Source: a virus. Taken from it: a DNA stretch of 25,377 nucleotides. Positions 91-21,524 of the stretch are shown here, one piece after another (within the stretch, counting starts at the first letter, position 1; each line of letters begins with the position of its first letter). The stretch is from positions 1-25,377 of IMG/VR virus record IMGVR_UViG_3300010153_000098. One strand, given 5' to 3'. The notes beneath the pieces are model-generated. The model ran no database searches. It had not been told where the DNA came from and saw nothing but the letters and a program-made list of their open reading frames with translations. Both the position numbers and the translations under genes were made by a program.

Positions 91-393
91 ATGGAAGAAG
101 CAAGAACCAATAAAAATAAAAAAATGGCTCTTAAAATAATGGAAGATTTACGAAACAATAAATTCGTATTACCAAATCTTAGCAATCTTGAAAGGACTTT
201 GGGAAAAATGCCGAATGCCCCAAGAATAACACAAGGTAAAGAAGTCGGGCCATACAAACACACTTCTGTTATTCTTCAAGAGGTTCAAGATTATTTAGAT
301 TCTTTAGGCCCACCAACCGGAAATCCGCTAAGGCATGACCCTATAAGAGATAAATGGACTGAAGGCCGCCTACGCTCGGAGGAATTACAATGA
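91..393 (+). CDS. Small hypothetical protein, remainder of an amber-interrupted tagged gene
   Basis: This 100-residue basic, Lys/Arg-rich protein has no recognised domain. The ATG at 91 has no convincing ribosome-binding site, whereas the in-phase ATG at 16 does. The original protein was therefore probably about 125 residues with an N-terminal M-S-W-K-N-I-L-K tag, and translation from 91 may be inefficient. A predicted helical segment of alternating Lys and Glu is followed by a Pro/Gly-rich section (SLGPPTGNPLRHDP) near residues 71-84. The stop overlaps the start of the next gene as ATGA, suggesting translational coupling. It is probably part of the virion-protein set, by position only. Confidence 0.6.
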   Translation: MEEARTNKNKKMALKIMEDLRNNKFVLPNLSNLERTLGKMPNAPRITQGKEVGPYKHTSVILQEVQDYLDSLGPPTGNPLRHDPIRDKWTEGRLRSEELQ

Positions 394-767
394 GTTGGAA
401 AGATATTATTAAAGCACCATATGATGCACCTAGAAGAAGTAAGGCATTCACGGCAAGAAGGAAGGCCGAAGAAGAAATAAGTGCAACAAAACCTAAAGAG
501 GATTTATCCACTGACATTTCTGCTTTTGCTTCTAAGATTATTGACCCTCAAATGGAAAGATACGGTAGGGCTTTTGTGAATATAACAAAAAATAAAGATT
601 GGCAAGAATTTTCTGAATTATTAGATAAATATGATAAGGATAAACTAGAAAATGAACTCGGTAAATTATACAATACCAAAGTGTTCATTACCCATAGGCC
701 GTCTAAAGGCGACCCTAGAGATGAAGACTATGTTATTGATATTGGAGTAAATCACGAAGCAAGGTAA
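390..767 (+). CDS. Tagged hypothetical protein (MSWKDIIK)
   Basis: This 125-residue protein starts with the shared peptide M-S-W-K-D-I-I-K. A basic stretch follows (RRSKAFTARRKAEEE, about residues 15-29), then a mixed helical region and a short beta-like C-terminus (VFITHRP, DYVIDIGV). The start is well supported by GGAGGAATTACA just upstream and overlaps the previous stop. No family is recognised. Because the tag is shared with many unrelated proteins in this cluster, I infer a common destination such as the procapsid. The specific role is unknown. Confidence 0.8.
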   Translation: MSWKDIIKAPYDAPRRSKAFTARRKAEEEISATKPKEDLSTDISAFASKIIDPQMERYGRAFVNITKNKDWQEFSELLDKYDKDKLENELGKLYNTKVFITHRPSKGDPRDEDYVIDIGVNHEAR

Positions 768-778
768 GAGGGATTGAA

Positions 779-1489
779 ATGAGTTGGGAAAAGATAATTA
801 AAAGAAACTGCGGCTGCGGAAAAGATGTTTGTGAAACATATGGCGAAGTCAAGAAAGGAAAGGGAGAAAGACATTTTTATATTGAAAATGGAAAGCCTGT
901 TCAATGGACTGGTGAAACGCATAAACACCCTGATGGCACTTTAATGACTGGAAAAGAACATGAAGAAGGAGTAAGTAAAGAGTTATTTCATCTTTATGAT
1001 TTAGATAAAAAATATTTAAAACATCTAAGTAAGGAAACAACTACACTGAAAGGTGAAAAAATTCTAGAAGAAGATGACCCATTTGAAAAACTGGTAGGTA
1101 ATCAAGATAGAATAGACGCTGATGCTGACGGTAAAATTACAGGTAATGATTTCAAGATTCTAGGAAGAAGGGCTAAACTAAAGAAAGGACACGACCTGTT
1201 AAAAAGAGGAAAAAGTTTTACTAGGCGGAAAAAAATTGCTGAACATAATAAGCCTATTCAAAAACTAATACGGGAATTAGAAGAAGAATATGAAGATGCT
1301 CATAGTAGTTTAATTTCTATGACTACTTCTAAAACAACACAGGCAATTGGTTATGAAAGGCAGATGGCAAAAGTAAAGGAATTAGAAAGAGTGTGTACTA
1401 AAATTAAAGCCCGCATCAAAGAACAGCAGAAACGATTAAAGGTGTTGGCTAATGAAAATAAAAGCAAGGGGAGAGGATTCACAGCATGA
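779..1489 (+). CDS. Tagged protein with Cys cluster, His-rich segment and EF-hand-like loop
   Basis: This 236-residue protein starts M-S-W-E-K-I-I-K. A Cys cluster follows (C11, C13, C18), then a segment containing THKHPDGTLMTGKEH (residues 47-61). Similar short His/Gly segments recur in marine phage proteins, as I recall, but no function is assigned here. Residues 113-124 (D-A-D-A-D-G-K-I-T-G-N-D, followed by F) fit a calcium-binding EF-hand or dockerin-type loop, with Asp at positions 1, 3, 5 and 12. The C-terminal half is a Lys/Glu-rich coiled coil (about 130-230). A GAGGGATTGAA ribosome site precedes the ATG. I infer a structural or accessory virion protein. Confidence 0.8.
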   Translation: MSWEKIIKRNCGCGKDVCETYGEVKKGKGERHFYIENGKPVQWTGETHKHPDGTLMTGKEHEEGVSKELFHLYDLDKKYLKHLSKETTTLKGEKILEEDDPFEKLVGNQDRIDADADGKITGNDFKILGRRAKLKKGHDLLKRGKSFTRRKKIAEHNKPIQKLIRELEEEYEDAHSSLISMTTSKTTQAIGYERQMAKVKELERVCTKIKARIKEQQKRLKVLANENKSKGRGFTA

Positions 1490-1641
1490 CATTATGTAAG
1501 ATTAAATGGTGTTACGCAGATACCTGCCAATACAATAAGTCGCTTAAGTGTACTTTACCTCAAGTAAACCTAAGCCCAGAGGCTAAGTGTGAATCGTATA
1601 AAAAAGATGTTATTAGAGAAACTTTAGCCGCAGGTGATTGA
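1486..1641 (+). CDS. 51-residue Cys-rich protein, DUF1540-like
   Basis: This short frame starts at an ATG overlapping the previous stop (ATGA) and ends TGA at 1639-1641, directly before the next ATG. Cysteines lie at residues 4, 9, 14, 22 and 35, in a pattern (C-x4-C-x4-C-Q-Y-N-x4-C ... C-E-S-Y) that resembles the small metal-binding DUF1540 type, where C-x-Y-N and a final Cys-aromatic segment are typical. The assignment is from memory of that pattern and is tentative. Precise packing between neighbours and the conserved-looking cysteines argue that it is real. It probably binds a zinc ion. Confidence 0.65.
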   Translation: MTLCKIKWCYADTCQYNKSLKCTLPQVNLSPEAKCESYKKDVIRETLAAGD

Positions 1642-3789
1642 ATGAAAAAATTTCCTGATAGTCTAATTGAATTATTTGCTATGTTGGCTGACGATAAGCA
1701 AGCCAAAGTATTGTTTAATATTAAAAGTACTAATAGAAAAATTACTAATCCTGTATTCGATGGCATGGTAAATCACTTCAGGGCAAATGAAATTAGTCAA
1801 GATTCAGTTAGACAATATCTTAGGGATAATGATATTCTTGCAACTCTAATACCTAATTCTTTAGGTAAAGCCGAAAGACTACAATTACGAAGTAATATGG
1901 CTAACAATTTAGAAACTCTTATTCAGAATTTAGGTAAAAGACAATCCCGTGACCAAACTCAACGCTTACTTGATACTATCTTAGCAGATAATGATAAATC
2001 TAAAGCAGGTATTGTGGCTTTGAATGTGTTTATTAAAGATGCTAGCGATAATAAAATTAATTTAATAACCAAGAGATACCTAACTCCTGAAATAAGACTA
2101 AAATTAATAGGAATTGTTGAAAAATACGCCTCCAAAAAGAAAAATTTTACTCCAAGTGACTTCGATAAAGACACAATAATTAACTTAAATAACAATTTGA
2201 TAGTAATTCGTTCAGTAGCACAAGACATTGACGCAAAGGAACTCAATGACGAAGCCAAAAAGAACGGTTGGGCTGTTGAATCGTCAGGTAATGGCGTTAT
2301 TTTAAGAAAAATATTCAAAATGGGCGTTAAAACCACAGAAAAGTCACTAAAAAAGTTAATTCAAGATGATTTACCTTCAGTTGAATCTGCTAATGATGGA
2401 CAAAACACTCAAATTACTCAAAAACCATCTAATTTACGCAGATTATTGTATGGAAAGGAAGCGACTTTCAAAACAATAGGTGGTTTTTCTCAAATTGCGG
2501 CTAAAACGCAAGTTATACTAGAAGACTTCGGTACTGTTGATAAAGAAATCATAGAAAGTTGGTTTAAATTAGTGACAGAAGGTGTAGGTGCGGGATTAAG
2601 TTCAGATGCGGAGTTTATGAAGGCAATTACTAACTTTAAAGTCAATGGTTCTTCTATGTATGGTAAGTTTTTAAGTGGTAAAACTCAAACGAAGAACCAT
2701 AAGACATCTTTTTATGTTAGAGAGTTGTTGGAACAGCCTCTTAGTCAAAACTTATTCGATGAAGTTATGAAAAACATCAAAGGTAGTCTTAGAGTGTCTA
2801 GGCAGAATTGGATAGCATGGAAAAAGACTTCTTTAGATACTAAAAAAGAAAAGGATGCTTTTGAGATTGATGCTAGAAAGCCATTAACTGATGAATCTAG
2901 ACAGGCTTTTGAAGAAGCCTATATTAAAGCAACTACAAATTCAATACAAGCGATTATGTTAGAATATCTCATAACAGAGGAAGGATTAAAAATAAGTAAT
3001 GATGACTATTACATATTAAATGTAAATGAGAAAAGAGAATCTCAAATAGCGTTAATAGAGGATTCAAAAGTTATGAAAAAGGTTTCTGACCTCCGTACTA
3101 ACATATTGGAAGACCCAAATAATGTAATATTTTACAAGGATTGGTTGAAAGAGAATGACTATGCTGAAGATTTAACTTTATTTAGAGAGAGAAGGATGGC
3201 ATCTCAATTACCTAAGAAAAAAACTGAAGAAAAGACTGAAGAAGAGACTGAAGAAGAGACTGAAGAAGAGACTGAGGAAATAGATTTTACTTATTTAGAT
3301 ACCGAGTCCGAATTGGTTAGGGTCATATATTCTGTAATACATAATGCGCCAACCAAAGTCACAGAAGATAAAAACGGCGAGAAAGTCGAGAGGCCGATAG
3401 ATGGTATTTTCAGAAAATATTTAGGCAACAGGTCAAAGTTAGCAAAGTATGTAAAATCTAATAAAAAGGACATAAAAGAAGGTCTAGTAGTATTCTATCA
3501 TATCTGTAACTCTATGGGTACTTCTTTGGTTACAGAAGCACAGGCAATAGACAAGCATACATCAAAAGGCTTATCTGCGGAAAACGAGTCGCTGCTGGCA
3601 GCAGTAAAGAAATTTGCCGCTAAAATGGAAAGTAGTCTTAAAGTATTTAAAAATAAGTTTAAAAAAGAATTAGGTACAAGGCTGAAAGATATAGCAGATA
3701 ACCCAAAAAAGTACCCTGCTGTTTATGATAAAAGACCTTACATAAGTAAACTAATTAAGTATTCACTGCTAAAGAGGCGACCACAATGA
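1642..3789 (+). CDS. Large helical protein of unknown function (715 aa)
   Basis: No domain is recognised. The protein is almost entirely predicted helix, with no signal peptide or membrane segment. A low-complexity T-E-E-E tract (residues about 528-547) separates a large N-terminal region from a C-terminal basic region ending KLIKYSLLKRRPQ. The start ATG directly follows the TGA of the preceding small gene, and the stop overlaps the next start. Unlike its small neighbours it lacks the W-x-x-I-L-K tag. With the 887- and 1045-residue proteins it forms a set of giant unassigned proteins around the packaging genes. Candidate roles, by position only, are internal virion, core or ejection protein. 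Confidence 0.8.
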   Translation: MKKFPDSLIELFAMLADDKQAKVLFNIKSTNRKITNPVFDGMVNHFRANEISQDSVRQYLRDNDILATLIPNSLGKAERLQLRSNMANNLETLIQNLGKRQSRDQTQRLLDTILADNDKSKAGIVALNVFIKDASDNKINLITKRYLTPEIRLKLIGIVEKYASKKKNFTPSDFDKDTIINLNNNLIVIRSVAQDIDAKELNDEAKKNGWAVESSGNGVILRKIFKMGVKTTEKSLKKLIQDDLPSVESANDGQNTQITQKPSNLRRLLYGKEATFKTIGGFSQIAAKTQVILEDFGTVDKEIIESWFKLVTEGVGAGLSSDAEFMKAITNFKVNGSSMYGKFLSGKTQTKNHKTSFYVRELLEQPLSQNLFDEVMKNIKGSLRVSRQNWIAWKKTSLDTKKEKDAFEIDARKPLTDESRQAFEEAYIKATTNSIQAIMLEYLITEEGLKISNDDYYILNVNEKRESQIALIEDSKVMKKVSDLRTNILEDPNNVIFYKDWLKENDYAEDLTLFRERRMASQLPKKKTEEKTEEETEEETEEETEEIDFTYLDTESELVRVIYSVIHNAPTKVTEDKNGEKVERPIDGIFRKYLGNRSKLAKYVKSNKKDIKEGLVVFYHICNSMGTSLVTEAQAIDKHTSKGLSAENESLLAAVKKFAAKMESSLKVFKNKFKKELGTRLKDIADNPKKYPAVYDKRPYISKLIKYSLLKRRPQ
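3223..3282 (+). repeat. 12-bp in-frame tandem repeat encoding TEEE/TEEK
   Basis: Five adjacent copies of a 12-base unit, consensus ACTGAAGAAGAG, lie in frame in the 715-residue protein; the first and last copies diverge. They encode an acidic linker. The copy number is likely to vary between related viruses by slippage. Confidence 0.9.
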
Positions 3790-6449
3790 CTAAACTATTA
3801 AATAAGTATTTGCCTAATAATGCTAAAGAAATACTAAATTCGTCTGAAAGAGAATTTAGAAGGGTTGTTCGTGGAAGCAGTGAAAGTGATAAAAAGAAAG
3901 CAATTACTTCAATAGAGGATTCTATTAGAGAAAGCATAATGAAATACAGAAAGGCTCTTAGAACTAATATAGGAACTAAGACTAGACAGGCTACTAGTAA
4001 GGAAGTTAGGGGAGTTATTTTACAAATCATACAAGAAGTAAATGAACATTTAATGGCTTTAAAAACTGAGAAAAAAATGCCTTCTAGTAAAGATATAGGA
4101 GTACAAGAAAATATAATAAATTATATTAGAGATATGTTAGAAGATACTAAGCATGTAAGATATAGCGGTGCTAAGTTAAAGGTCGAGGATATTATGTCTA
4201 ATTCCTTTTCATCTGACCAAATAACTATTACTAAAAAGATTAATGTTTCTGAAACAGAATCAGATATTAAAATGCTTTTTAATATGAAAGAATATCCCAT
4301 TCCTAATCATATTAAAAAGAATTTAAGGGCTTTTACTGAAAGACTTGGAGAATTGTCTAAAGCAAAGACTACTAGATTCAAAATACATAGACATGAATCC
4401 CATTTGAAAAAGATTTTTGGTAGCGATACTCAAAGGGCTAGAGATGCTAAAGATAGAAAGGCCACATATAAGTTTTGGAAAGGTATTGCTGCTCATGAAG
4501 ATGATTTAGAAACTGAATTAGATAAATTAGTTGTGTTATTAGAAAAAGGTAATCCAAGCGATGCAAAGACAGATAAAGATGTATCGGCGTTTCTAAAGTT
4601 TATGAGTAGTGACCCTGATTTAAAATATGTATATCCATTCCCTAAAAAGACATTAGGCTTTGCTGATATAAATGCAAGGTCGTATCAATTCCTACTTAAT
4701 TTCCTTAAACTGTTTAATTATGATGTTAACTTTAGAGGAAATAAAGTTAGTTATGCAGGTAAAGGAGGTTCCGATGCACCTAGCGATGATGATGATACTT
4801 CGGATTCAGAAGTAACAGGCGGTACAGGTCAAGAAGAAGTAGTATCAGACGAAGAACCTCAAGGCGGGGAAGATTCTGATGAATTAGATGTCCAAACAGA
4901 ACAGAATATAGCCGCAGACGCTCAAAGAGCAGATAGAGCGAATCAATTGACCGTAGGTGAAAATGCAGCAAGAGATGTATTTAGTAATCCTGAAGTTTCA
5001 GAATTAAAGAAAGATATGGAAAAAGAAGACTATGACCCACTAGGAATACTAGTGGTAAAGGATGACTTAAAAGGTCTAATGCCTCTATATGGGGAAATAG
5101 ATGAAATTAGAGACTATTTAGAAGAAAAAAGAACCTTGCTAGACATAGATGAAGATGATGAAGAGGCTCTCTTTGAGACATTTATGGATGATTTAGAGAG
5201 AATACATTCTTTGGCAGACAGTCTAAAAGAGTTCCATTTACCTATATTTGCGGCGGAAAACCCTGTAATTAGGGCAGAATATCCAGAATTGAAGGCTAAA
5301 GCGGGGTCAACAGGAGCAGACATTGATAGATTTTTAGAATTGTTTGCTAATTTAATCCAAGATGAAAAGGCAACTATGGCTAATGTAACTGCTCTTGATA
5401 TGCTAGGTGCAGGTACAAAAACTAAAGACGATATTCCAGAAACTAAAAAAAGATATTTCAAATATGTTACAGGAGTTGCCGCAAGAAAAGGTTCTCCTAG
5501 ACAATCCTTCAAAGCAGCAAATTCAGCAAACTCTAAGATTAATGCGGCTATTAATAAAGTAGTTAAAGAAATGGCACAGGTATTTATTACTCCGCAGATG
5601 ACTCATTTAGATGCGGGAATATCTCTCCCCTTTAAGAATAACTTTGCTCTAAGATTGATTTCCTCAACTAAAAAATTAGATAAGAAGTTTGAGATTTATC
5701 AAGCCATAAATGAGAAGTTTATGAGTACAGGAGAGGCATTCATAGATGAAGAAGCCGTGGTTAAATTAAGGTCATTTACTAGTATGTTGGCTAAAGGTGA
5801 TGCAGTTCAGAATTTTGAGAATATCAAATCAGCAGGTGCTAAGTTTGCACAGGCGTTGTATGACATCGCTAAATATACTGAAGATAAAACACGGACTAAA
5901 TTAAATGACAATATAAAGGAAAGTATTCAAAAAGATGTGGCGGCAATACTGGGTTCTATTAGAAGCATTTCTAATGTTAGAAGAGATGAATATTTCATGA
6001 ATAATTCATGGGGTAACAAGATAGGAATACTAGACGAATATAAGCAAAGTAAGAAGGATGGAATAGAAGATATTTCAGTACTCAGAGTAATTCTAGATTT
6101 GTTGGAAAGTAAACACGGTGAAAGTGCAATACCTGATAAGAACGAAAGACAGAAATTACTAGATGATTTGAGAGAGATTAAGAAAAGTGAAGTTAGTGAA
6201 AAAATACTAAGTGTTCACGATTCTATTCGACTACTAAAACAAAAGCCGGTATTTTATGGTAAAAAGAAAATCAATAACTTTGACCATATAGGTGACATGA
6301 TAACTAAGATGGAAAGAGAATACAATTTAGATATTAGCGCAAGTGAGATAACAGGTGTCGTTAATGAATTGGATTCTTTTGATAGTATTAGTAAATCCTA
6401 CGGTATTAGTACAGAACATGTTTATGTGATTAAAGCAAACTTTAGGTGA
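3786..6449 (+). CDS. Large helical protein with acidic linker and C-terminal helix-turn-helix-like segment (887 aa)
   Basis: The family is not recognised. The N-terminal third is Lys/Arg-rich and helical. A strongly acidic low-complexity linker (about residues 328-375, rich in D, E, S and G) precedes a mostly helical C-terminal half. The last 25 residues (863-887) contain S-I-S-K-S-Y-G-I-S-T-E-H-V-Y-V-I-K, which matches the shape of a helix-turn-helix (I-x3-Y-G-I-S, then V-Y-x-I-K). This suggests contact with DNA. The start overlaps the previous stop. Candidate roles are an internal core protein or packaged DNA-associated protein; both are inference. Confidence 0.8.
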   Translation: MTKLLNKYLPNNAKEILNSSEREFRRVVRGSSESDKKKAITSIEDSIRESIMKYRKALRTNIGTKTRQATSKEVRGVILQIIQEVNEHLMALKTEKKMPSSKDIGVQENIINYIRDMLEDTKHVRYSGAKLKVEDIMSNSFSSDQITITKKINVSETESDIKMLFNMKEYPIPNHIKKNLRAFTERLGELSKAKTTRFKIHRHESHLKKIFGSDTQRARDAKDRKATYKFWKGIAAHEDDLETELDKLVVLLEKGNPSDAKTDKDVSAFLKFMSSDPDLKYVYPFPKKTLGFADINARSYQFLLNFLKLFNYDVNFRGNKVSYAGKGGSDAPSDDDDTSDSEVTGGTGQEEVVSDEEPQGGEDSDELDVQTEQNIAADAQRADRANQLTVGENAARDVFSNPEVSELKKDMEKEDYDPLGILVVKDDLKGLMPLYGEIDEIRDYLEEKRTLLDIDEDDEEALFETFMDDLERIHSLADSLKEFHLPIFAAENPVIRAEYPELKAKAGSTGADIDRFLELFANLIQDEKATMANVTALDMLGAGTKTKDDIPETKKRYFKYVTGVAARKGSPRQSFKAANSANSKINAAINKVVKEMAQVFITPQMTHLDAGISLPFKNNFALRLISSTKKLDKKFEIYQAINEKFMSTGEAFIDEEAVVKLRSFTSMLAKGDAVQNFENIKSAGAKFAQALYDIAKYTEDKTRTKLNDNIKESIQKDVAAILGSIRSISNVRRDEYFMNNSWGNKIGILDEYKQSKKDGIEDISVLRVILDLLESKHGESAIPDKNERQKLLDDLREIKKSEVSEKILSVHDSIRLLKQKPVFYGKKKINNFDHIGDMITKMEREYNLDISASEITGVVNELDSFDSISKSYGISTEHVYVIKANFR

Positions 6450-6453
6450 TAAC

Positions 6454-6933
6454 ATGGGTTGGTTTGAAATACTAAAAAGAACAGAAATTGTTCCCGAAGA
6501 ATCTCTTCAGGACTTAGAAGAGTTTGTTTTAGCAGAAGAGAAAGGCTATCCTTCTGTATTGCACCCTCTAAAAATAGTTGCTGAGTTTGATGATGATACA
6601 GATAAACTAAAAGGATATACTTCATTTAGAGACTTTGGTAAATTCTTTTTTGTAGGTAATAGTTATGTTTTTGATAGAGAAGGTGGAACATTTAGAAAGG
6701 TACTGGCTGCTAGGAAAAAGGCTTTGGGTGATAGTAAGCCTAAAATTACTTTACTTAATCCAATAGAGGGTACTGATTTATCTAGACTAACTGCTATGGT
6801 TGAAAAAAGAGGTGGCGTTAAGATAGAAGAATATTCACAAGTGGATGATGTTATGGATGAATCTATGTATAACGAATTTAAGAAATTACCTATGTTTAGA
6901 TACCCGCCATTAAAAGAAGGTGAAGAAGAATGA
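6454..6933 (+). CDS. Tagged protein, possibly GNAT acetyltransferase-like
   Basis: This 159-residue protein starts M-G-W-F-E-I-L-K, a variant of the shared tag. Residues about 38-130 run strand (LKIVAEF), strand (KFFFVGNSYV), then D-R-E-G-G-T-F-R-K-V-L-A-A-R-K-K-A-L, then strand (KITLLNP) and helix (LSRLTAMVEKRGGVKI). That order resembles a GNAT acetyltransferase, with an R-x-G-G-x-x-x-K-L-type segment where acetyl-CoA would bind. The match is by eye and lacks the canonical Q/R-x-x-G-x-G/A. Four bases after the preceding stop, GGTGATAAC leads into the ATG. The acidic tail ends GEEE, and the stop overlaps the next start. Confidence 0.75.
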   Translation: MGWFEILKRTEIVPEESLQDLEEFVLAEEKGYPSVLHPLKIVAEFDDDTDKLKGYTSFRDFGKFFFVGNSYVFDREGGTFRKVLAARKKALGDSKPKITLLNPIEGTDLSRLTAMVEKRGGVKIEEYSQVDDVMDESMYNEFKKLPMFRYPPLKEGEEE

Positions 6934-7346
6934 ATTGGTTTGATGTATTAAAATTAAAAGACGATGATGGAAACTTGTTAATTGTTGAAGATGTTGACGA
7001 GTTTGTAAGATACCTTAGAGAATCTTTAAGGGCAGTAGCCGCACCTTTCTATGGTACTATTACACAACCAAAGAGCGAAGGGAATCCTAGAAAATCGAAC
7101 ATAGTTGTAAAGGAAACATGGGTCGATGATAATACCTTAAAGGTAGTAGCCAGCGTAAGAAATCCTAATACGACACAAAGAGAATACTTTGAAATTATTC
7201 TCCGAGAAAATGAAGAAGGAGACTTTTACTTTGATAAGGTTGAAGGGGCGGGAGTGTTCCTATTCCGTAACACTAATGTCAGTAATTCGGGTAAATTAAT
7301 ACAAGAAATACAGCAAGCGGTTAAGAGATATTTACAAAGTAGTTGA
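6930..7346 (+). CDS. Tagged hypothetical protein (MNWFDVLK)
   Basis: This 138-residue protein starts M-N-W-F-D-V-L-K, close to the tag of the preceding gene (M-G-W-F-E-I-L-K). The body alternates strands (SNIVVKETWV, TLKVVASVR, YFEIILRE, FYFDKVEG) and ends in a helix (KLIQEIQQAVKRYL), suggesting a small alpha/beta fold. No family is recognised. It overlaps the previous gene by ATGA and lies just before the terminase, so a packaging or head role is possible but not shown. Confidence 0.8.
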   Translation: MNWFDVLKLKDDDGNLLIVEDVDEFVRYLRESLRAVAAPFYGTITQPKSEGNPRKSNIVVKETWVDDNTLKVVASVRNPNTTQREYFEIILRENEEGDFYFDKVEGAGVFLFRNTNVSNSGKLIQEIQQAVKRYLQSS

Positions 7347-7350
7347 TTGC

Positions 7351-8781
7351 ATGGAAATAGAACCTTTTAATTTTGAACATAATATGGATATGGAGTTATC
7401 TAAAAACTCCTTTCCATATTTTTTCCAGAATGTATTAGGGTTTGATTTTCCATCTTATATTAGTGAATGGCATGACTTAATGAATGAAACTCAAAGGACT
7501 GTTATTATTTGTAGTCGTGACCACGGTAAGTCTGTATTTATGCACAGTTGGGTTGTATGGAAATTAATCTTTGAAGAACCCCCATACCAAATGCTATACA
7601 TATCTTCTAACCAAAAACAGACTCTTGTTCACATGAGAGACATTGATAAAATGTTTACTCATCCTATGCTTAAAAAATTCAAACCTGCTAGGGGTTGGGC
7701 TATCGGTAACATTACATTAACTAACGGTAATCAAATCTTAGAGCGTTCCGTAGGTTCACAGATTCGTGGACTACACCCTCAAGAAATAGTAATTGATGAC
7801 CCTTTGAAAGAGTTTAGTATGACAGGTATTCAAAAGGTTACAGATTGGTTTTATGGTGACATGATACCTACACTGCATCACACTGCGTCATTGAGAGTTA
7901 TTGGTACTCCATTTAGTTACACAGATATTTACCAACAGTTAGCAGAAAATGAGGCTTATACGGTCAGAACATATCCATGTCTCAATTCTTTGAATGAACC
8001 CTTATGGCCGGATAGATGGAATTACGATGCGTTGATGGCTCGTAAAGCAGAAGTAGGTTCATTGATGTTCACAAGAGAATACATGTGTGTACCTATTTCA
8101 ACAGGTACTTCTTTATTCAATCCTGATTATTTAGAGAGGGCCAAAGATAAGGATTATGTTTTGAAACCACAAAGGCGTGAAGGCTTCAAGTATTATGTAG
8201 GGGTTGACCCTGCTATTTCAACTGATGGAGATTACAATGTAATTACTGTATTAGAAGTTGATGAACATGACAATAAAACAGTAGTATTTGTTGACCGTTC
8301 TAAGAATGTTGAGTTTAGAGAGAACATAGAAAAGGTTCGTCTAATAGGAAAGATGTTCCATCCTGAAGTAGTATTGTTTGAGACAAACACCTTCGCTAAA
8401 TCATTTACACAAGAATTGAGGAATGTATCTGATTTGAATGTTCATGACTTTAACACTACTAGAAAAAGAAAGGAAGAGATTATTCTAAGTTTGCAGATGA
8501 ATTTTGAGAATGAAAAGATTAGACTACCTTATGGTAATGAAGAGAGCCGAAGAGTATCAATGATTCTTTTAGAAGAATTGTCAATGTTTGCTATTACAGA
8601 CAAAGGGAAGTTTGAGGGAATTGGAGCGCATGACGATATGGTTATGAGTTTAGCCCTTGCTAATGCGGCTACCCATACTATGAGTGAAACATTCATACTG
8701 TTAGATGACTTGGGTTTATTTGAGCCGGTTAAGACTAACCGTTATCAACCCACTAGCGGCGTTATAGGAATGAATTTTTGA
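7351..8781 (+). CDS. terL: Terminase large subunit (DNA-packaging ATPase/nuclease)
   Basis: This is the motor that cuts concatemeric viral DNA and pumps it into the procapsid through the portal. At 476 residues it has the normal family length and both domains. The ATPase domain shows a Walker A-like S-R-D-H-G-K-S (55-61; Lys60), a hydrophobic strand ending I-D-D (148-150) as Walker B, and I-G-T-P (184-187) in the coupling-motif region. The RNase H-like nuclease shows G-V-D-P (Asp286), L-F-E-T-N (Glu344) and A-H-D-D (Asp428/429), the expected acidic triad. The Walker A is of the S-R-x-x-G-K-S type, common in T4-like terminases. No small terminase subunit is recognised nearby. Confidence 0.96.
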   Translation: MEIEPFNFEHNMDMELSKNSFPYFFQNVLGFDFPSYISEWHDLMNETQRTVIICSRDHGKSVFMHSWVVWKLIFEEPPYQMLYISSNQKQTLVHMRDIDKMFTHPMLKKFKPARGWAIGNITLTNGNQILERSVGSQIRGLHPQEIVIDDPLKEFSMTGIQKVTDWFYGDMIPTLHHTASLRVIGTPFSYTDIYQQLAENEAYTVRTYPCLNSLNEPLWPDRWNYDALMARKAEVGSLMFTREYMCVPISTGTSLFNPDYLERAKDKDYVLKPQRREGFKYYVGVDPAISTDGDYNVITVLEVDEHDNKTVVFVDRSKNVEFRENIEKVRLIGKMFHPEVVLFETNTFAKSFTQELRNVSDLNVHDFNTTRKRKEEIILSLQMNFENEKIRLPYGNEESRRVSMILLEELSMFAITDKGKFEGIGAHDDMVMSLALANAATHTMSETFILLDDLGLFEPVKTNRYQPTSGVIGMNF

Positions 8782-8790
8782 GGTGGTTAT

Positions 8791-10146
8791 GTGACAACGG
8801 CAGAAGAATACGACGAAGCCTCTGAAAGAATGAAGCGTTTAGCGGAGTTAGAGAGAGAAAAGCAAGAAGAATTGTCAGAAGTTCAAAATGATTTAAGCAC
8901 TAAATTGACAGGAGTTTCTGATTATGTCATGTCTGATTATGAAGCAGTAAATAATCTATCCAAGAATCTAAATATTAATGCTACTGATGCTAGGAAACAA
9001 CTATCCACATTCCCTTCTGAATATATTGTTGATGGTCAAAATATCCCAGACCTAGTAAGAAAAATGCGTAAAGCAAGAAGGAAACTAAAAGGAGATTCTA
9101 GAATAAGAATGTCTGAAACTATTGATACAGTTATTGATGGATATGCAGACCACATACACAAGTGTATTGATTCTATTTATTGGATTACTCCATATAAGAT
9201 TCCTCTCTTGAAAATGAGATTCAACGAAAAAGATTTATCTAAATTAAATAAGATTTCAGAAGTTAAAGAAAGAAGAAACATAGTTGATTCTCTTTGTAAA
9301 TTATGGGAAATAGATTTAAAGAAAACAGATATGGCTTTTGGTTCTAACTACGCTAAATTAGAAAAAGAATCTAGATTAGCCAAAAAGGAATTTAGAGAAG
9401 AGTTAAAGAAAATTAGCGACCAATCTTTAATTAAATCTAAAAAGGAGAAGTCCTTAGATTTTATTTTAAAATCAATATGCGAAAATCCCGGAATTGGTCT
9501 TGGAACTATTCATGACCAAATGCCAAACAATTTACATAAAGCCAATTCAACTAATACTATTTCTAAAATGATTAAGAAATTAGAAGTAGGTAGTATAGAT
9601 GGTGCTTATTATAAATTACCTAATGAATTAAAAAAGAATGTTTGGGCTTACACTGCTGCATTTATTGATTCAGACGGTTATATTACTATGGATAGAAACC
9701 ATAATCCGAGAGTAGGGTTGATTGCTACTGGAGAAAGAGGTAAGGTGTTCATGAATGAAATGCACAAGTCTATTGGGTTTGGTAAATTACATTTAGACCA
9801 AAAATCCCCTCAAGATACACGACCTGTTAATCGCTTAAACTTTTATTCACAGGCAGATGTAGTCAATCTATTAACTAAATGCTTACCGCATTTCAGACTA
9901 AAGAAAGGTAATGCTGAATTATTATTAGAATTAATTCGTATGAAAAAGTCGCACAAGAAGGCCGATTGGTATAAATCTAGATGTGATGAGATATTCAAGT
10001 TAATGAAATGGGAGAACCATAAAGACCATGTTGGTTTTGATTTTGCTAAAGAAGGAATATATGTTGATGATATTTCTAAGTTACAAGGTAACTGTAAGAT
10101 GTCTGCTATGGATGAGTTAGAAGGTATTGGAGGTATGATAGTATGA
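8791..10146 (+). CDS. LAGLIDADG endonuclease-type protein with long N-terminal helical region
   Basis: This 451-residue protein starts at GTG behind GAGGTGGTT. Residues 1-215 are charged and helical without a recognised family. Residues about 222-275 look like a winged-helix segment (SLDFILKSICENPGIG... TNTISKMIKKLE). From about 283 a LAGLIDADG homing-endonuclease domain begins, with the motif A-A-F-I-D-S-D-G-Y-I (289-298; Asp295 at the catalytic position), followed by typical R-V-G-L-I-A-T, K-S-I-G-F-G-K and L-L-L-E-L-I-R-M-K segments. Only one motif is visible, so it would act as a dimer or serve as a binding domain. No intein splice residues flank it. It lies between terminase and head genes, a common site for such selfish elements. 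Confidence 0.82.
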   Translation: MTTAEEYDEASERMKRLAELEREKQEELSEVQNDLSTKLTGVSDYVMSDYEAVNNLSKNLNINATDARKQLSTFPSEYIVDGQNIPDLVRKMRKARRKLKGDSRIRMSETIDTVIDGYADHIHKCIDSIYWITPYKIPLLKMRFNEKDLSKLNKISEVKERRNIVDSLCKLWEIDLKKTDMAFGSNYAKLEKESRLAKKEFREELKKISDQSLIKSKKEKSLDFILKSICENPGIGLGTIHDQMPNNLHKANSTNTISKMIKKLEVGSIDGAYYKLPNELKKNVWAYTAAFIDSDGYITMDRNHNPRVGLIATGERGKVFMNEMHKSIGFGKLHLDQKSPQDTRPVNRLNFYSQADVVNLLTKCLPHFRLKKGNAELLLELIRMKKSHKKADWYKSRCDEIFKLMKWENHKDHVGFDFAKEGIYVDDISKLQGNCKMSAMDELEGIGGMIV

Positions 10147-10526
10147 GTTGGAAAGATATTCTTAAAGTAAAGGCTACCGCTACTCACAATAGCAAAGGCG
10201 AAAAGAAAGACCAATGCGCTTTAAATGCCGATGAATCATATGGATTAAAAGGTTCAGCGTATAAATCAGGATATATGACCCGTTGCCGTCAAGGAAAACT
10301 AAAGAAAGGCGGAGATAATTTCAAAAGGGAAAAAGAATCGGGATTACACGGTTGGTTTTCAAGAAGAGGCGGGGATGGACAAAAGGGTTGGGTTTCCTGT
10401 CAATCATGTGAAAATGATAATGAAGAGACAAAACCTTGTGGAAGACAAGATGCTTCTAAAGGAACTAAACAAAGATGTAGGCCAACTTGTTCTGCATGTG
10501 AAACATATAAAAGGAGAAGGGGATGA
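10143..10526 (+). CDS. Tagged Cys-rich basic protein (DUF5872-like)
   Basis: This 127-residue protein starts M-S-W-K-D-I-L-K. It then carries a conserved-looking phage block: K-K-D-Q-C-A-L-N-A-D, Y-K-S-G-Y-M-T-R-C-R, then H-G-W-F-S-R-R-G-G-D-G-Q-K-G-W-V-S-C, P-C-G-R and C-R-P-T-C-S-A-C. The order G-W-F, G-W-V-x-C, C-G-R, C-R-P-T resembles the small DUF5872-type proteins of marine phages and giant viruses; this is recalled, not searched. Eight cysteines suggest zinc binding. It is strongly basic and overlaps neighbours on both sides (ATGA). An internal, DNA-associated virion role is inferred. Confidence 0.8.
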   Translation: MSWKDILKVKATATHNSKGEKKDQCALNADESYGLKGSAYKSGYMTRCRQGKLKKGGDNFKREKESGLHGWFSRRGGDGQKGWVSCQSCENDNEETKPCGRQDASKGTKQRCRPTCSACETYKRRRG

Positions 10527-10876
10527 TGTGGGAAGATATTCTAAAAAAGAAACCTAAGAGTGCTAGGTCAAGAGCCTTAGAGAGAGCCAAAAAGAAAGGG
10601 CTTAAAGGATTAAATAGACCACAGCGATTAAAAGACAGTTCAGGAAAATCACATCATGTAATGGCCTTTGAAGGTAAGAAAGCCAAGTACATTAAATTCG
10701 GTCAAGCAGGTGTAAAAACAAATCAAACTGCTGGACAAAGAAAAGCATTCAAATCTAGACACGCAAAGAACATAAAGCGTGGTAAAATGTCTGCTGCTTA
10801 TTGGGCTGATAAGGTGAAGTGGAGTCCTAAGAAAACTAAAGAAAAGAAGAATAAGAAATGGCGGAAGGGCAGTTGA
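10523..10876 (+). CDS. Tagged, strongly basic small protein, candidate DNA-binding head protein
   Basis: This 117-residue protein starts M-M-W-E-D-I-L-K. A second ATG at 10526 would give M-W-E-D-I-L-K; GGAG at 10513 fits either. Lys and Arg make up roughly a third of residues, with a Lys-rich tail. The core H-H-V-M-A-F-E-G-K-K-A-K-Y-I-K-F-G-Q-A-G and R-H-A-K-N-I-x8-A-A-Y-W-A-D-K-V-K-W resembles short proteins that recur in marine phage genomes (recalled pattern, function not known to me). High positive charge plus the shared tag makes it a good candidate for a packaged DNA-condensing protein. Confidence 0.8.
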   Translation: MMWEDILKKKPKSARSRALERAKKKGLKGLNRPQRLKDSSGKSHHVMAFEGKKAKYIKFGQAGVKTNQTAGQRKAFKSRHAKNIKRGKMSAAYWADKVKWSPKKTKEKKNKKWRKGS

Positions 10877-11344
10877 ATGTGGGAAGATATATTAAAGGCT
10901 GATTTTGTGGTAAAAACCAATTGGCCTGAAGCGGATTTTTGGCTACAAAAAAGAGGTTCTGAACAGAATGTCGGAAAGCCTATGAGAAAGTTTAGCAAGG
11001 TTCAAGGTCAATATAACATAGGAATTAAAGTTCCGAAAGGAATGAATAAAGAATATGTATATGCACAATTAGCAGCACTATTTAGAAAAGGATATTGGCA
11101 AACACATTCTTACGGTACTCTTAATTTACAGCATATTAGAGTCGATGATGTAAAGAAGATACTACAATCTTTTGAAAATAAAGAAGACTATACAGACGCT
11201 ACATCAGATAAGATAGAAAAAATATATGATAAGTGGCTAAATGATTCTAAGTTGATTAGTCAATTACTTATGTCAAGTAACTCTCTAATTAGAGAAGGTC
11301 GGGAAATTAAAAGGTTCTTAGGGAAAATGGAGGACATGAGATGA
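10877..11344 (+). CDS. Tagged hypothetical protein (MWEDILK)
   Basis: This 155-residue protein starts M-W-E-D-I-L-K immediately after the preceding TGA, so no longer start is possible. A conserved-looking core D-F-W-L-Q-K-R-G-S-x4-V-G-K-P (residues about 20-34) is followed by Y-N-I-G-I-K-V, then L-A-A-L-F-R-K-G-Y-W and G-T-L-N-L-Q-H-I. Similar cores occur in marine phage proteins, as far as I recall, without a function I can name. The C-terminus is helical and charged. GGAGG near its end (11329-11333) probably serves the next small gene. Confidence 0.78.
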   Translation: MWEDILKADFVVKTNWPEADFWLQKRGSEQNVGKPMRKFSKVQGQYNIGIKVPKGMNKEYVYAQLAALFRKGYWQTHSYGTLNLQHIRVDDVKKILQSFENKEDYTDATSDKIEKIYDKWLNDSKLISQLLMSSNSLIREGREIKRFLGKMEDMR

Positions 11345-11484
11345 AGTATTGCGGTAAATGTTATACTGCCGATATTGGGGTTTATCCCTTCGGTTATTGT
11401 CAAGTTTGTTGGGTCAAGGCAGGTAGTCCTAAGACCATGAAGATGAAAGCATTGATAAGAGAGGCGAATCCTCCAAATATTTAG
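11341..11484 (+). CDS. 47-residue zinc-ribbon protein
   Basis: This short frame starts at an ATG overlapping the preceding stop (ATGA), with GGAGG about ten bases upstream, and ends at TAG 11482-11484. The translation begins M-K-Y-C-G-K-C-Y and continues Y-C-Q-V-C-W, giving C4-x2-C7 and C20-x2-C23, a complete four-Cys zinc ribbon. A short basic helix follows. Precise overlap, a strong ribosome site and paired CxxC motifs argue that it is a real gene. It may bind DNA or a partner protein. It is also the one clear use of TAG as a stop here. Confidence 0.7.
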   Translation: MKYCGKCYTADIGVYPFGYCQVCWVKAGSPKTMKMKALIREANPPNI

Positions 11485-11494
11485 GGGTGTAGTT

Positions 11495-13138
11495 ATGGCT
11501 GAAAAGAAGCGACGGTTCTCGTTCACTAACCTGTTTAGGCGTTCAACTCCTAAACCTGCGGATAGGCAGATATTCAATATGGGTATTCAGGAAAGACAGA
11601 ATAACTACATGATGACGGCCCCTATCATTTATTCTATGGTTCAGCAATCAGTTATTGTCCGAACATGTATTACTCAATTAAAACAAGAAGTTTATAGAAG
11701 AGGTTATGTTTGGGAAAAAGCATTTGATTCTATTTGTAAACAATGCGGTAAAAAACACCAAAGACCTGTATCTGAATGTTCTAGATGTAAAAGCACTGAT
11801 TTGAAAAAACCAGATGTAAAACAATTAGAGTATGCAGAAAGGTTCTTAGAAGGATATGTCAATCCTTCTGAACAATTATTTATTGATGTTCTAAAAGAAT
11901 TAGAGGATGATTTGAATACAATGGATGATGCCTACATTGTCTTAGTTAAAGAATATTTCCTAGACGGTAATGGTAAAATAAGAATGCACCGCATAAAAGA
12001 AATCTTTAGAGGCGACCCTGTTACTATGTTTATTTATGCAGACGAAGAAGGTGTAAAGGGTACAAAAGGATTCACATGTATTAATCATAGGACTATATTA
12101 GATACTGAACCGCATCATACTTGTGAAGAATGTAATGGTAAACTATATCCTGTTCATTATGTTAACAGAGCGAATGGGGAAGACCAATACTTCTTAGAAG
12201 GCGAGGTGTTACACTTTAGTAAATACAGCCCTAGTAGGCTGTACGGTTTTTCTCCTGTAATTACATTATACAATCATATTATGACTCTAATTGCTATGGA
12301 GAATTATGTTAATTCAGCCTATACTAAGAGCAGAATGCCTAGAGGATTATTGGCAGTACAGACTCGTAACATGGATTCAATGAGAGCCTTTTGGCGTGGT
12401 GTAAAAGAGAAGATGGAATCAGACCCTCACTTTATTCCTGTTATGGGTGTTGAATCAGATAGTGGCGGTAAGGGTGCTGTTGAATGGATTAAGTTTATGG
12501 ATAGTCTAAAAGAAATGGATTACATGTCTGTAAAGGATGATTTAAGAGATAGGATTTCAGCATTCTATGGAGTAAGTAAAGTATTCATGGCAGACAATAC
12601 CACTAGTGGTGGATTGAATAATGAAGGTATGCAGATTCTTGTTACTAATCGTGCAGTACAAATGGCACAGAATGTGTATAATAATTATGTATTTCCTTAT
12701 CTAATCAAACAGTTCGGTATTACTGATTGGGAATTAAAACTCCCACCATCAGAAGAAGAAGACGAAATAGCAGTACTTCGTAAAAGAGAATTAGAAGTTA
12801 GTATTGCGGCTGCTATTAAAAATCTAGGATTTGAAGTTGACATGGATGAAGACGGTCAATTTACTTATGACAAACCTGAACCTACGAAACAGCCGCAAGA
12901 AGGAGAAGAAGGGCAGAAAGGAAGTAAAGACCCCTTAGCCGGTTCTAATTTAGACCAAAGAGACTTAGACGAAAGTATGCGAGTAATGGCAGAAGGCGGA
13001 AGTAAACCACAAGAAAATCCAGCGACAACTAGAAATAAACCTAGTGTTGAGACAGGGCCAGATAAGCGTCTAACCGGATTACCCGAAGATGCCGGAAATC
13101 AGAATGTTGATTCAAGAACAGAAAGAAGAGTTGGTTAA
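11495..13138 (+). CDS. Portal protein with two zinc-ribbon-like insertions
   Basis: This is the dodecameric ring at the capsid vertex through which DNA is packaged. It has 547 residues. Portal-like features include the early S-M-V-Q-Q-S-V-I-V-R-T-C-I segment, the helix before residue 280, the R-A-F-W-R-G-V-K-E-K stem-like region (297-306), and R-D-R-I-S-A-F-Y-G-V-S-K-V-F-M (351-365), typical of the clip/stem of HK97/SPP1-type portals. Unusually, C81/C84/C95/C98 form a four-Cys knuckle, and C195/H198 with C210/C213 form a second. The last 100 residues are a Pro/Glu/Gly-rich disordered tail. The location after terminase and before protease supports the call. Confidence 0.9.
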   Translation: MAEKKRRFSFTNLFRRSTPKPADRQIFNMGIQERQNNYMMTAPIIYSMVQQSVIVRTCITQLKQEVYRRGYVWEKAFDSICKQCGKKHQRPVSECSRCKSTDLKKPDVKQLEYAERFLEGYVNPSEQLFIDVLKELEDDLNTMDDAYIVLVKEYFLDGNGKIRMHRIKEIFRGDPVTMFIYADEEGVKGTKGFTCINHRTILDTEPHHTCEECNGKLYPVHYVNRANGEDQYFLEGEVLHFSKYSPSRLYGFSPVITLYNHIMTLIAMENYVNSAYTKSRMPRGLLAVQTRNMDSMRAFWRGVKEKMESDPHFIPVMGVESDSGGKGAVEWIKFMDSLKEMDYMSVKDDLRDRISAFYGVSKVFMADNTTSGGLNNEGMQILVTNRAVQMAQNVYNNYVFPYLIKQFGITDWELKLPPSEEEDEIAVLRKRELEVSIAAAIKNLGFEVDMDEDGQFTYDKPEPTKQPQEGEEGQKGSKDPLAGSNLDQRDLDESMRVMAEGGSKPQENPATTRNKPSVETGPDKRLTGLPEDAGNQNVDSRTERRVG

Positions 13139-13139
13139 T

Positions 13140-13469
13140 ATGACTTGGGAAAATATATTGAAAATTGAAAAGTTTAGGAATCCTTTCAAACAACAAAAGA
13201 AGGGAAGAGAAAAAATGCCTATGGAACTTTTTCAACGAAGGCATAGATTAAGTCCCGAAGTCATGAAAGAAGTTAGACAAAAAATACAACCATTAACCAA
13301 TTTATACAAGCAAAAGGTTACTGAATTTGAGGCTAATGAAGAAAGTACGCTTTGGATAATTTCTAAACATTTGACGGGCAGACAATCAAGAAATCCTGAT
13401 GCTGATGCTATTAATACCATAGATGAAATTATTAGAAATTTAACAGATAACATAAATAGAAGAAGGTGA
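13140..13469 (+). CDS. Tagged hypothetical protein (MTWENILK)
   Basis: I place the start at ATG 13140, one base after the portal stop, because the protein then begins with the shared tag M-T-W-E-N-I-L-K; the longer in-phase frame from 13089 would overlap the portal tail. The protein has 109 residues: a basic stretch (FKQQKKGREK), then amphipathic helices (SPEVMKEVRQKIQPL ... INTIDEIIRNLTDNINRR). No family is recognised. Its helical and basic character and its place between portal and scaffold-type genes suggest a small internal or assembly protein. Confidence 0.78.
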   Translation: MTWENILKIEKFRNPFKQQKKGREKMPMELFQRRHRLSPEVMKEVRQKIQPLTNLYKQKVTEFEANEESTLWIISKHLTGRQSRNPDADAINTIDEIIRNLTDNINRRR

Positions 13470-13710: not shown

Positions 13711-16700
13711 ATGTTATGGGAAGCAGTGCTAGTAGGGCGTGAAAATGACCCTTCCTTTTTATTGAAGGCACTAGTTAATGACATAGAAAAGAGATACGAA
13801 GGAAAAAGAACCAAGCAACCAAGACCTAATCCATATATAGATAATGATGGTAAGCCTATTGATAAAGTAAAGGCTAAGGCTTGGGAAAATATACCAAGAA
13901 GTTTTGCTTTAGAAGGCCCGAATAAAAAAATGTCAATAGAAGATGCATACATTACTGTTTTAGCAGAAGCGGCTAAAACTCAAATGGGAACAGGCTCTAA
14001 AGGACAACCTAAATCCGATAGCGATGAAGTGTATCGGCTATTTTATCAAGAACAAAGAAAAAGAATACAAGATTATTATAAAAAACTTATTAGTAATCAA
14101 AAGAATAAAAAGTACACTTTATCTGAATTAAATAAAGAATGGATAGAAGAAAACAGATATTGGAATCCTAAAGATTCATCAATAGATGAGTCTAAAAAGA
14201 AAATATTTACTGATTTAGGAATACCTATTGAAATTAATTGGAAAACAGGATATGACAGACCCGCATCTGGTTTTGAAGATAAATTTTTTGGAAGCAACGA
14301 AGGTCTAGAACTTAAACTAAAAGAACTTAATCAGCAGTTAGAAAAAGAAGAGAAAAAAACTGACGAGGATTTAGATAATATATCCTTTGATTGGCAAACT
14401 AAAGAGGAAGCCATTAAAGGGAATAAAAAGTTTATTGAATATTTAAAAGACGAAATACAGGTAATAGAAGGAAGAATACAAGAAGGTAAAAAAAATCAAT
14501 TAAGTAATAAAGAATTATTTTCTATGTATGGAGGAAAGGCCAAGTTCCAAAAGAAAATAAACGATAGTTATATTTCTGCTATCAAACTATTAGAACAAGA
14601 AGATTTGAAATTGTTTGATGAAAATTATAAGAAGATGCAAACTAAAATAGATAAGGATATATCTTATGCTATTAAAAACATAAAGCCATCTCCTGATATG
14701 AAAGATAATATTACTTTCGGAGAAGTATATAGTAATATAGAAGGCTCAAGTGAATTGTCTGAATTAAAAGAACTTCTTAAAGATGATGAAATGAAACAAT
14801 ACTTAGAACTTCTATCAGATAAATACTCTCTTCCTAAGAAATGGGATGAGATGTCTGATAAGGAACAAAATGCTTGGGAATTAGATAATAAAAGAAAGTT
14901 TCAAAGTAACTACCAAAGATTATTAAAAACCCTATATGCTCTAAAAAACAAATATTCTGCTGATGCGTCTACTTCAAATAAGGTTTCAAAGGTGGAAGCG
15001 GTCATTAAAACTCTTAATGATAGATTTAGTATGAAATCATGGGAAGATGGTAGAAAAGAAGCAGAAGAAATGAAAAGAGAAAGCGGCACATCTTTGAGAA
15101 GAGATTCTAAAGATTCTGACTTCGGCCCTAATAAATTAAAAAGACCAAAACCTAAAAAATGGAAAACTATGTCATTTAAAGAACAACAGGAATGGTATTC
15201 AAAAAATACAATTAAAAATCCTAGTAGAAAAGCAGCAGAAGAATCTGACATGCAGAATATATATGAAGTGATATTTAACGACAAAGAACCTTTAGATAAA
15301 TTAGTTAAGAATAAAAAAATAAAAGCACTATTACCTAGTAAAGAAGTTGATGTTACGAAGCCTACTAGGGAAATGTGGTCTAATCTATTAACTAAACTAG
15401 AAGCATTTAGTAAGTCTAAAAACCCTGAAAGTCAATTTAATAAGTTAATCTTATCTAATGAATTATATCTTATTGATGTAATTAACTTAATGCAAACTAG
15501 AAGAAATAATGTATATCCTAAATATACTAAATTGACAGGTAAGAAACTAGTTATGCAAAAGCCTCCTAAAAAGAAAAAGGAAGTTTCGATAGGGGGGAAA
15601 AAGACTAGTCAGTTAAGTGTAGGAAATCGCCCACCTAAACCTAAAAAGGCAATAGAAGATGACCCTAATCCAGAATATTTTGATACTTCCGAAACAGTAC
15701 CTAAAGACCCAAGAACAGCAAGTGAAAGAGCATGGGATGAAAAGCACTTTAGAAGGGTGAAGAAAGCCGAAGATGACGAAAAACCTTTACCTAAAATTGG
15801 TAGCAATAAAGCGGCTATGGAAGCAAGAGAAAAGAAATATGCAAAAATGTATAGAGAAGCGATTACGGCTAACTATGCTAAATTAAAGGCAGATATGAAT
15901 AAAGTAAATTCTGATGATTTAGATAAGTACTTCAGTAAAACAAAAAGTGTTATGGATTCTGATTTATTTCATTGGATTGATAAAACTAACAAAGGAATAA
16001 CTATGAGAGTTATTCCCTATGGAGAAGGAGATAAAGATTACTCCACCATTAGAAAAGATGTTCTTGATATAATGAAAATATTAGATAAAGATATGGAATA
16101 CGATGGTTCTGAAATGAAAGTATTAGATGTTCTTAATGTTCTTGGAAGAAAAGTATATAAAAAGAAAGCAGGTTCTATTGTTTCAGACAAGAGAAGAGAT
16201 GTTTCTGCTAAATTAAAAACCATAGGTGAAGAAACAGTCAGAGCAGTTATGGCTAAAGATAGTAACGATTTCAAAATACCTAGATTGTTTAAATTAAAAT
16301 TAAAACAAAACAATCTTAAACTTAAAAAGGAGTTTTATAATATATTTACTGCCACACCAACGCCTAATAAAACTACAAAGGTTGAGACTATGAGAATGGT
16401 TGAAGGTACTGAAGAAAAAATAAACGAATTAACTGAAATAGAAAAGATAATATTATCTAGATGGAAACTAGTTTCTGATGCCGTAGTTGAATTATCAAAA
16501 CCAGAAATAAAAGCCAGAGAAGAATCTTTTAAGAGAAAACAGTACGCTCAAGCACTAAGGTATATTTTAGACTTTGAAGAAGCAATTGAATCCGCTAGAA
16601 AACCTATGGATATAATGGAACAAGAAGTTATAGTGCTATCAGAACGACTACAAAAAGACCCTGTAAAATTCCTTTTGCCTTCGGGAGAAAGTTCTACAAT

Positions 16701-16848: not shown

Positions 16849-16850
16849 AA

Positions 16851-17708: not shown

Positions 17709-17712
17709 TTAT

Positions 17713-20241: not shown

Positions 20242-20290
20242 TGAACCGATTCTTTAATATAGTCATTGAAATTACAAGAGGTTGAAGACT

Positions 20291-21521: not shown

Positions 21522-21524
21522 AAC

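Follow-up and report, generated by a model that had tools for sequence, protein, structure and literature searches.

Short terminal peptides that bring proteins into a capsid or a related shell have been described in several systems. The internal proteins IPI-IPIII of phage T4 are described as carrying an N-terminal targeting signal, the first 10 residues of IPIII being sufficient for incorporation (PMC9026906), and an N-terminal signal of the phage P1 protein DarB is reported to suffice for loading a reporter into the head, in an account that notes no consensus among the Dar N-termini (PMC9024508). Several head proteins of the giant phage SPN3US have N-terminal propeptides that are thought to target the prohead, most of them longer than 100 residues and cleaved (PMC5694885). 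For herpesvirus UL26/UL26.5, scaffold and protease are described as having a common C-terminal tail that binds the capsid protein (PMC12474303), and in encapsulins a short N- or C-terminal peptide is reported to load cargo into an HK97-related shell (PMC7355545). Here we analyse a short peptide that recurs in the virus record IMGVR_UViG_3300010153_000098, whose 25,377 bases (the whole stretch analysed, hereafter the window) encode a terminase, a portal, a Peptidase_S78 head protease and a major capsid protein. The original prediction was that this peptide, M-x-W-x-[DEN]-[IV]-[LI]-K, opens many otherwise unrelated proteins as a procapsid-loading tag. Our conclusion is that it is quite probably a docking peptide for capsid (procapsid) assembly, and that the 'cargo' proteins which bear it would copy the tail of the scaffold.

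The eight N-terminal tags of the window are real, and all eight read at their positions exactly as had been quoted (Table 1). The pattern as printed fits six of them literally, since MSWEKIIK (779) has K in the [DEN] place and MWEDILK (10877) has no residue before W. The gene at 13140 could also be read from 13089, where a longer open reading frame (ORF) that includes this ATG opens; as the portal gene ends at 13138, 13140 is the more probable start. Two further genes, at 13711 and 16851, had been suspected of opening with degenerate tags, and both prove to be real derivatives: relatives of the first begin MSWKAVLAGREND, while relatives of the second have canonical tags (MTWEDILKE, MSWQEILKA) and the window copy has an insertion after MTW.

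The observation that carries our conclusion, and that had previously been missed, is that the same core also ends two proteins of the window, one of 81 aa (17200-17445, ending ..NMEWSDIHKMVEKIGGQ) and the head protease (20282-21514, ending ..SMDWSDIHKMVNNR). The protease gene lies directly before the capsid gene and its product ends ..MDWSDIHKMV.., the core common to the N-terminal tag and this protease-scaffold tail being M-x-W-x-[DE]-I. We examined 161 loci, which are related to one another and not independent; six could not be read, and in all of the 155 that could, W-x-[DEN]-[ILVM] stands in the last 22 residues of the ORF before the capsid gene. An alignment of 34 proteases with 45-96% identity to that of the window has the tail W invariant (34/34), beyond a variable acidic linker, and the tail is kept where capsid identity is ~50%. 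A structure model of the protease, moderate at best (mean pLDDT 55) and used for domain layout alone, shows a catalytic domain and, beyond a linker of low confidence, a long coiled coil (304-384) that is followed by a short tail helix (residues 400-408), the tail-helix layout being of low to moderate confidence.

The 81-aa protein, the product of a separate gene, has the core in its C-terminal tail in seven of eight long relatives of the window, which were found through their capsid protein, not the tag, and picked from the capsid matches by length. The same holds in records G050 and G042, and by pattern the tail is present in 37 of 80 loci of a second clade, the other loci possibly not spanning the gene; some pattern matches in that clade are internal to the capsid protein and are excluded from the counts. 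A third family, of about 375 aa, has a C-terminal tail of the type W-x-[DE]-x-[LI] in several genomes and not in more divergent ones. In the same family, the proteins at G047 16470-17900 and G049 10713-12032 have an extra C-terminal stretch, preceded by a tag-like WQNILK/WKNVLK that lies about 60-100 residues from the end. Some N-tagged proteins of 395-442 aa have W-x-x-[IL]-L-[KS] as a second tag-like element, at a distance of about 50 residues from the C-terminus (G034 1626-2813, G027 6927-8198, G049 9398-10726, G047 17888-19147 and G032 17642-18943), which suggests that these may be doubly tagged.

The motif is restricted to protein ends. Across the eight genomes, M.W.[DEN][IVL].[KR] occurs 75 times at an N-terminus, 15 times at a C-terminus (in two gene families) and at 0 of 208,972 interior positions. 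A profile comparison of the tails with the N-terminal tags is less clear than this pattern count: the median score of 24 tails is reached by 15 of 314,253 interior and 19 of 33,247 C-terminal sequence windows, and 6,486 interior windows score at least as high as the weakest tail. Among the top interior profile matches, several lie in proteins with a miscalled start or with C-terminal or double tags.

When related viral contigs are searched for the motif, as had been proposed, tags stand on ORFs of the capsid strand and on none of the opposite strand. ORFs were called mechanically (at least 40 codons, overlaps removed), with a start at a tag preferred on both strands. The strict tag opens 101 of 551 capsid-strand ORFs in the eight long relatives, against 0 of 580 on the opposite strand. 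Nine further records come from a scan for the tag alone; in six of them capsid identity is 51-55%, and the other three have no capsid match. For all 17 records, with the tag-bearing strand taken as reference, the counts are 215 of 1125 ORFs against 0 of 1092 on the other strand, or 6-20 tagged ORFs per record. In a chance scan of 81 loci including the window (1.18 Mb, segments of at least 50 codons), neither the minus strand nor the reversed sequence held a match; a looser pattern gave one minus-strand match in a second set of 80 loci.

The tag is also modular. Once their first 12 residues are removed, the 215 tagged proteins fall into 119 BLAST families, 82 of which are seen once in the 17 records. 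We aligned 86 family representatives (those of the 119 families with a length of 100 aa or more and complete within the fetched sequence); their consensus start is MxWxDILK, in which W is the sole invariant residue and the tag K nearly invariant. Information content over the 119 families is 6.7, 1.2, 2.2, 3.0, 2.7 and 2.9 bits at the six core positions, the last of which is Lys, and at most 0.41 at the next 24. Codon use varies while the peptide is kept, which indicates that selection acts on the peptide: the 101 tags of the eight genomes use 88 distinct 18-mers for 50 hexapeptides, with all six Leu codons found at one position.

Tags cluster upstream of the terminase gene and between terminase and portal. 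Using terminase, portal and capsid genes as anchors and treating each contig as circular, we counted tagged genes in 14 records, leaving out the 3 of 17 without anchors. Between terminase and portal the tag is on 25 of 65 genes; it is on 6 of 96 in the interval from portal to capsid, on 9 of 280 among the 20 genes after the capsid gene, and on 131 of 481 in the remainder of the late strand. In relative G003 the block after the capsid gene includes a tail tube protein and a weak tape-measure match (10 proteins scanned), and on the strand opposite the capsid gene five of eight large proteins match polymerase B, ribonucleotide reductase, ligase, chaperonin and a UvrD-type helicase. The tag is a late-gene feature outside the tail block. 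The procapsid-targeting reading is strengthened because the core stands on the C-terminal tail of the protease-scaffold, is found on none of the opposite-strand ORFs and is rare after the capsid gene. In G034 (83.8-89.6 kb; L352:3817-9597), seven consecutive tagged genes have a longer common start, W-x-x-[IVL]-L-K-N-I-Q-I, with an eighth at the opposite contig end, as if the tag had been extended on local, perhaps paralogous, genes.

The tag finds such genomes, as the original prediction had suggested. When IMG/VR was scanned with a DNA pattern of nothing but the tag, at least 119 stretches in at least 80 loci matched, and of the 152 matches read in new loci, 146 lie at the start of an ORF, with no more than 30 open codons before it. 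Thirty contigs of >40 kb were chosen from the 80 listed loci, and 24 of them carry the capsid protein, at identities down to 51%; three of these (the contigs of L212, L241 and L245) were already known from the capsid search, which leaves 21 of 27 as new. Three of the six capsid-negative contigs (G032, G041 and G045) have 10-19 tags together with terminase or portal matches, and G024 has the start of a tagged protein in common with a positive contig (L209 and L271). The match in G031 lies 226 codons inside an ORF and that in G040 starts a 162-aa ORF; we take both for other phages.

Compared with a phage collection, the capsid protein of the window matched nine records, eight of them haloarchaeal, among them HVTV-1, HCTV-1 and HCTV-5. 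HVTV-1 is classed in Druskaviridae, with which magroviruses are placed in one account (PMC8651126). Magroviruses (Magrovirales) have genomes of 90-110 kb, morphogenesis and replication genes on opposite strands, a family B polymerase and a capsid protein close to that of Druskaviridae (PMC12999244). The eight long relatives measure 84-96 kb (six at 90-96 kb, the other two at 84 and 88 kb), and it is on these, not on the 25-kb window, that the features of magroviruses were found, the position of replication genes opposite the capsid gene having been read in G003. Assigned by that published description (PMC12999244), the group appears to fit the magroviruses, and its members look like viruses of marine archaea. 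Membership in the magroviruses would also imply a Poseidoniales host; a host search in genome contigs matched only two contigs (L125, L126) of one metagenome-assembled genome, labelled Maricaulis sp., and the presence of magrovirus-like contigs in that bin is probably a binning error. Titles and abstract openings of the papers listed on magroviruses and on archaeal capsid targeting do not mention the motif, and motifs of Poseidoniales viruses matched no paper, earlier mention being possible; the words motif, N-terminal and scaffold are absent from the main text of PMC10160649.

Most of the tagged proteins are orphans. Pfam assigns six families to the 86 representatives, with one member each (PAP2, DUF5754, DUF6943, GNAT, Synaptonemal_3 and DEK_C), the last two being probable chance matches; PHROGs has 7 families among them, and PADLOC none. 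With so few family matches and none from PADLOC, roles such as anti-defence are unsupported.

A docking peptide for procapsid assembly is the best reading of a motif that occurs at either end of proteins, is fixed on the protease-scaffold, and is borne both by a small second protein and by unrelated late proteins in their dozens. We propose that, while the procapsid is being assembled, the protease-scaffold and the 81-aa protein would attach to the inside of the capsid shell through their C-terminal core. In each record another 6-20 proteins, a set that changes between records, are tagged at the N-terminus (with at least one further family tagged at the C-terminus); they would mimic this docking and would thereby be enclosed in the head before DNA is packaged, the peptide probably serving as an address that directs proteins into the virus head as it forms. 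We infer that the docking partner in the shell is most likely the major capsid protein and less likely the portal, and that the tagged proteins are co-packaged in the virion and delivered to the host cell.

A number of observations count against this interpretation. The 81-aa tail was not found in G017, one of the eight genomes, nor in G034, G047, G027 and G049. When the pattern is freed of its Met (W.[DEN][IVL][LIVHN][KR]), the eight genomes yield 95 N-terminal, 21 C-terminal and 8 interior matches, though several of the latter look like tags with a miscalled start. The fifth core position is L or I in N-terminal tags against H or N, rarely A, in the C-terminal tails of the protease and the 81-aa protein; tag and tail are thus close and not identical, and different binding sites are possible. 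In divergent clades the protease tail shifts from SDIHKM to DEINEL while the N-tag consensus is unchanged, so that covariation speaks neither for nor against a common receptor. For nine of the 17 records the tag was the means of discovery, so that their tags are there by selection, and the preference for a start at a tag favours the tag counts, although the other strand was handled identically and gave none. G050 alone has 6 tagged genes among the 20 after the capsid gene, two thirds of the 9 in 280. Control stretches of 35-50 kb each from five other tailed viruses, HVTV-1, HCTV-1, vir519 and two marine phages, contain no N-terminal tag, and HVTV-1 and vir519 are without the protease tail, which means that no isolate transfers directly. 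Finally, the 24 positions after the tag hold no conserved sequence signature of cleavage across the 119 families. Since conservation ends at the Lys, removal by the prohead protease is unsupported, while a targeting tag remains the best explanation; the earlier interpretation is thus supported in part.

The most durable of the alternatives, although we hold it to be unlikely, is compatible with docking and states that the tagged proteins are not delivered cargo: they would be permanent structural parts (inner-capsid or DNA-binding), or assembly factors that do not stay. Some tagged proteins are indeed strongly basic (for instance 10523-10876), and the families of 13711 (a large protein) and 16851, near the scaffold genes, have degenerate or full tags, yet the fast turnover of the set (82 of 119 families seen once in 17 records) and its rare enzyme-like members, a PAP2 phosphatase and a GNAT acetyltransferase (2 of 86 representatives), suit accessory cargo better. 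Less likely again is that the outcome is the same with another receptor, the tag binding the portal, or the scaffold core as in T4, in place of the major capsid protein, and concentrating proteins there. That many tagged genes flank the terminase and portal genes is in keeping with this, as is a description of the T4 targeting peptide as having affinity for the core (PMC9026906), but the scaffold-protease itself bears the motif and a receptor outside the scaffold fits better. It is very improbable that the tag sends proteins elsewhere (to the host membrane, a replication compartment or a host factor that the protease tail also uses), given that it is on 0 of 1092 other-strand ORFs and 9 of 280 genes after the capsid gene and that in all 155 readable loci the head protease has the motif at its end. 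We give next to no credence to a relic of translation initiation or of 5'-cassette recombination without a role at the protein level, which would suit tags at gene starts amid gene content that turns over, but not the same core at C-termini or codons that vary while residues are kept.

We favour a docking peptide for capsid assembly, and the features of the window that bear on it are collected in Table 1. The capsid protein has profile matches to head-protein families and may have an HK97 fold, its structure model being unusable (pLDDT 42, 35-row alignment).

Table 1. Tagged genes of the window, proteins with the core at the C-terminus, and head genes that give their context.
Feature	Coordinates	Strand	Remarks
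N-tagged gene, 125 aa	390..767	+	MSWKDIIK at 390-413; close relative in G001 tagged too
N-tagged gene, 236 aa	779..1489	+	MSWEKIIK at 779-802; EF-hand_1 E 0.016, weak, below cut-off
N-tagged gene, 159 aa	6454..6933	+	MGWFEILK at 6454-6477
N-tagged gene, 138 aa	6930..7346	+	MNWFDVLK at 6930-6953
Terminase large subunit, untagged, context	7351..8781	+	phrog_38 E 4.5e-57
N-tagged gene, 127 aa, Cys-rich	10143..10526	+	MSWKDILK at 10143-10166; DUF5872 weak, E 0.045
N-tagged gene, 117 aa, strongly basic	10523..10876	+	MMWEDILK at 10523-10546; phrog_7595 E 3.1e-22
N-tagged gene, 155 aa	10877..11344	+	MWEDILK at 10877-10897; DUF6943 E 1e-5, just below cut-off
Portal protein, untagged, context	11495..13138	+	phrog_18178 E 2e-67
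N-tagged gene, 109 aa	13140..13469	+	MTWENILK at 13140-13163
Large protein, 1045 aa, degenerate tag MLWEAVLVGREND	13711..16848	+	Relatives read MSWKAVLAGREND
121-aa protein, degenerate tag (insertion after MTW)	16851..17216	+	Alignment; canonical tag in relatives
81-aa protein, same core in C-terminal tail, MEWSDIHKMVEKIGGQ at 17395-17442	17200..17445	+	
Head maturation protease, scaffold-like coiled coil, C-terminal tail MDWSDIHKMVNNR at 21473-21511	20282..21514	+	Peptidase_S78 E 3.3e-9
Major capsid protein, putative docking partner	21516..22859	+	phrog_24667 E 1.9e-25; SU10_MCP E 2.3e-6

Three other genes of the window deserve mention. An ATP-dependent DNA ligase of 842 aa (17713-20241; DNA_ligase_A_M E 5.5e-28) lies within the head gene cluster and adjoins the protease; in relative G003 a ligase is encoded on the replication strand. 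Between the terminase and the tagged genes there is a possible homing-type endonuclease (8791-10146; phrog_5046, HNH endonuclease, E 1.5e-5). Among the late genes, a frame at about 24863-25377, open at the window end, has GATMVGKTTL and then DIGGE and by eye resembles an Arf-like small GTPase; the G003 gene in the corresponding place (seventh after the capsid gene, L088:15647-16348) has no Pfam or PHROG match at E 0.001.

If the docking interpretation is true, the proteins packed in the heads of uncultured archaeal viruses, described as widespread in surface oceans (PMC10160649), could be listed from sequence. It would also offer a simple hypothesis for how a capsid chooses its proteins, namely that they mimic the tail by which the scaffold itself would bind the shell, and the peptide might be used to target proteins for loading into capsids.

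In its way of working the peptide would resemble capsid targeting in T4 and P1, the scaffold tail of herpesviruses and the loading peptides of encapsulins, without membership in any of them being implied. As in T4, a short N-terminal peptide is common to otherwise different proteins of the head or late set, but IPI opens MKTFKEF and, as judged by eye for this one IP, has no W-x-D-I core. T4 peptides are cut by gp21, whereas here no conserved protease site closes the peptide as a sequence signature. The termini of gp21, gp22, gp67 and gp68 have by eye no evident peptide in common with IPI, while here the protease and the 81-aa protein have the core in common, and three IPs plus Alt in T4 compare with 6-20 tagged ORFs per record. 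The N-terminal signal of P1 DarB, reported to bring a reporter into the head, is a similar case; the Dar N-termini are described as without consensus, whereas one consensus extends here over 119 families. SPN3US likewise has an N-terminal targeting element on several head proteins, differing in that its propeptides are mostly longer than 100 residues and cleaved. As in herpesviruses, one tail closes both the protease-scaffold and a further protein, but the second protein here is a separate ORF (17200-17445) and not an in-frame part of the protease gene, and many further proteins bear the motif at the N-terminus. Encapsulin peptides load cargo from either terminus; the present motif occurs at both and may do likewise, but it is viral, occurs on many protein families at once and has its core in common with a scaffold-protease, its binding being putative. 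We consider it possible, if somewhat short of probable, that one peptide, copied from the shell-binding tail of the scaffold-protease and independent of the terminus that bears it, serves as a general address code throughout an order of abundant marine archaeal viruses, and that each virus uses it to load 6-20 proteins, exchanged quickly, into its head for delivery to the host; such a code would be a viral counterpart of encapsulin loading and might link scaffold docking to cargo packaging in HK97-type shells.

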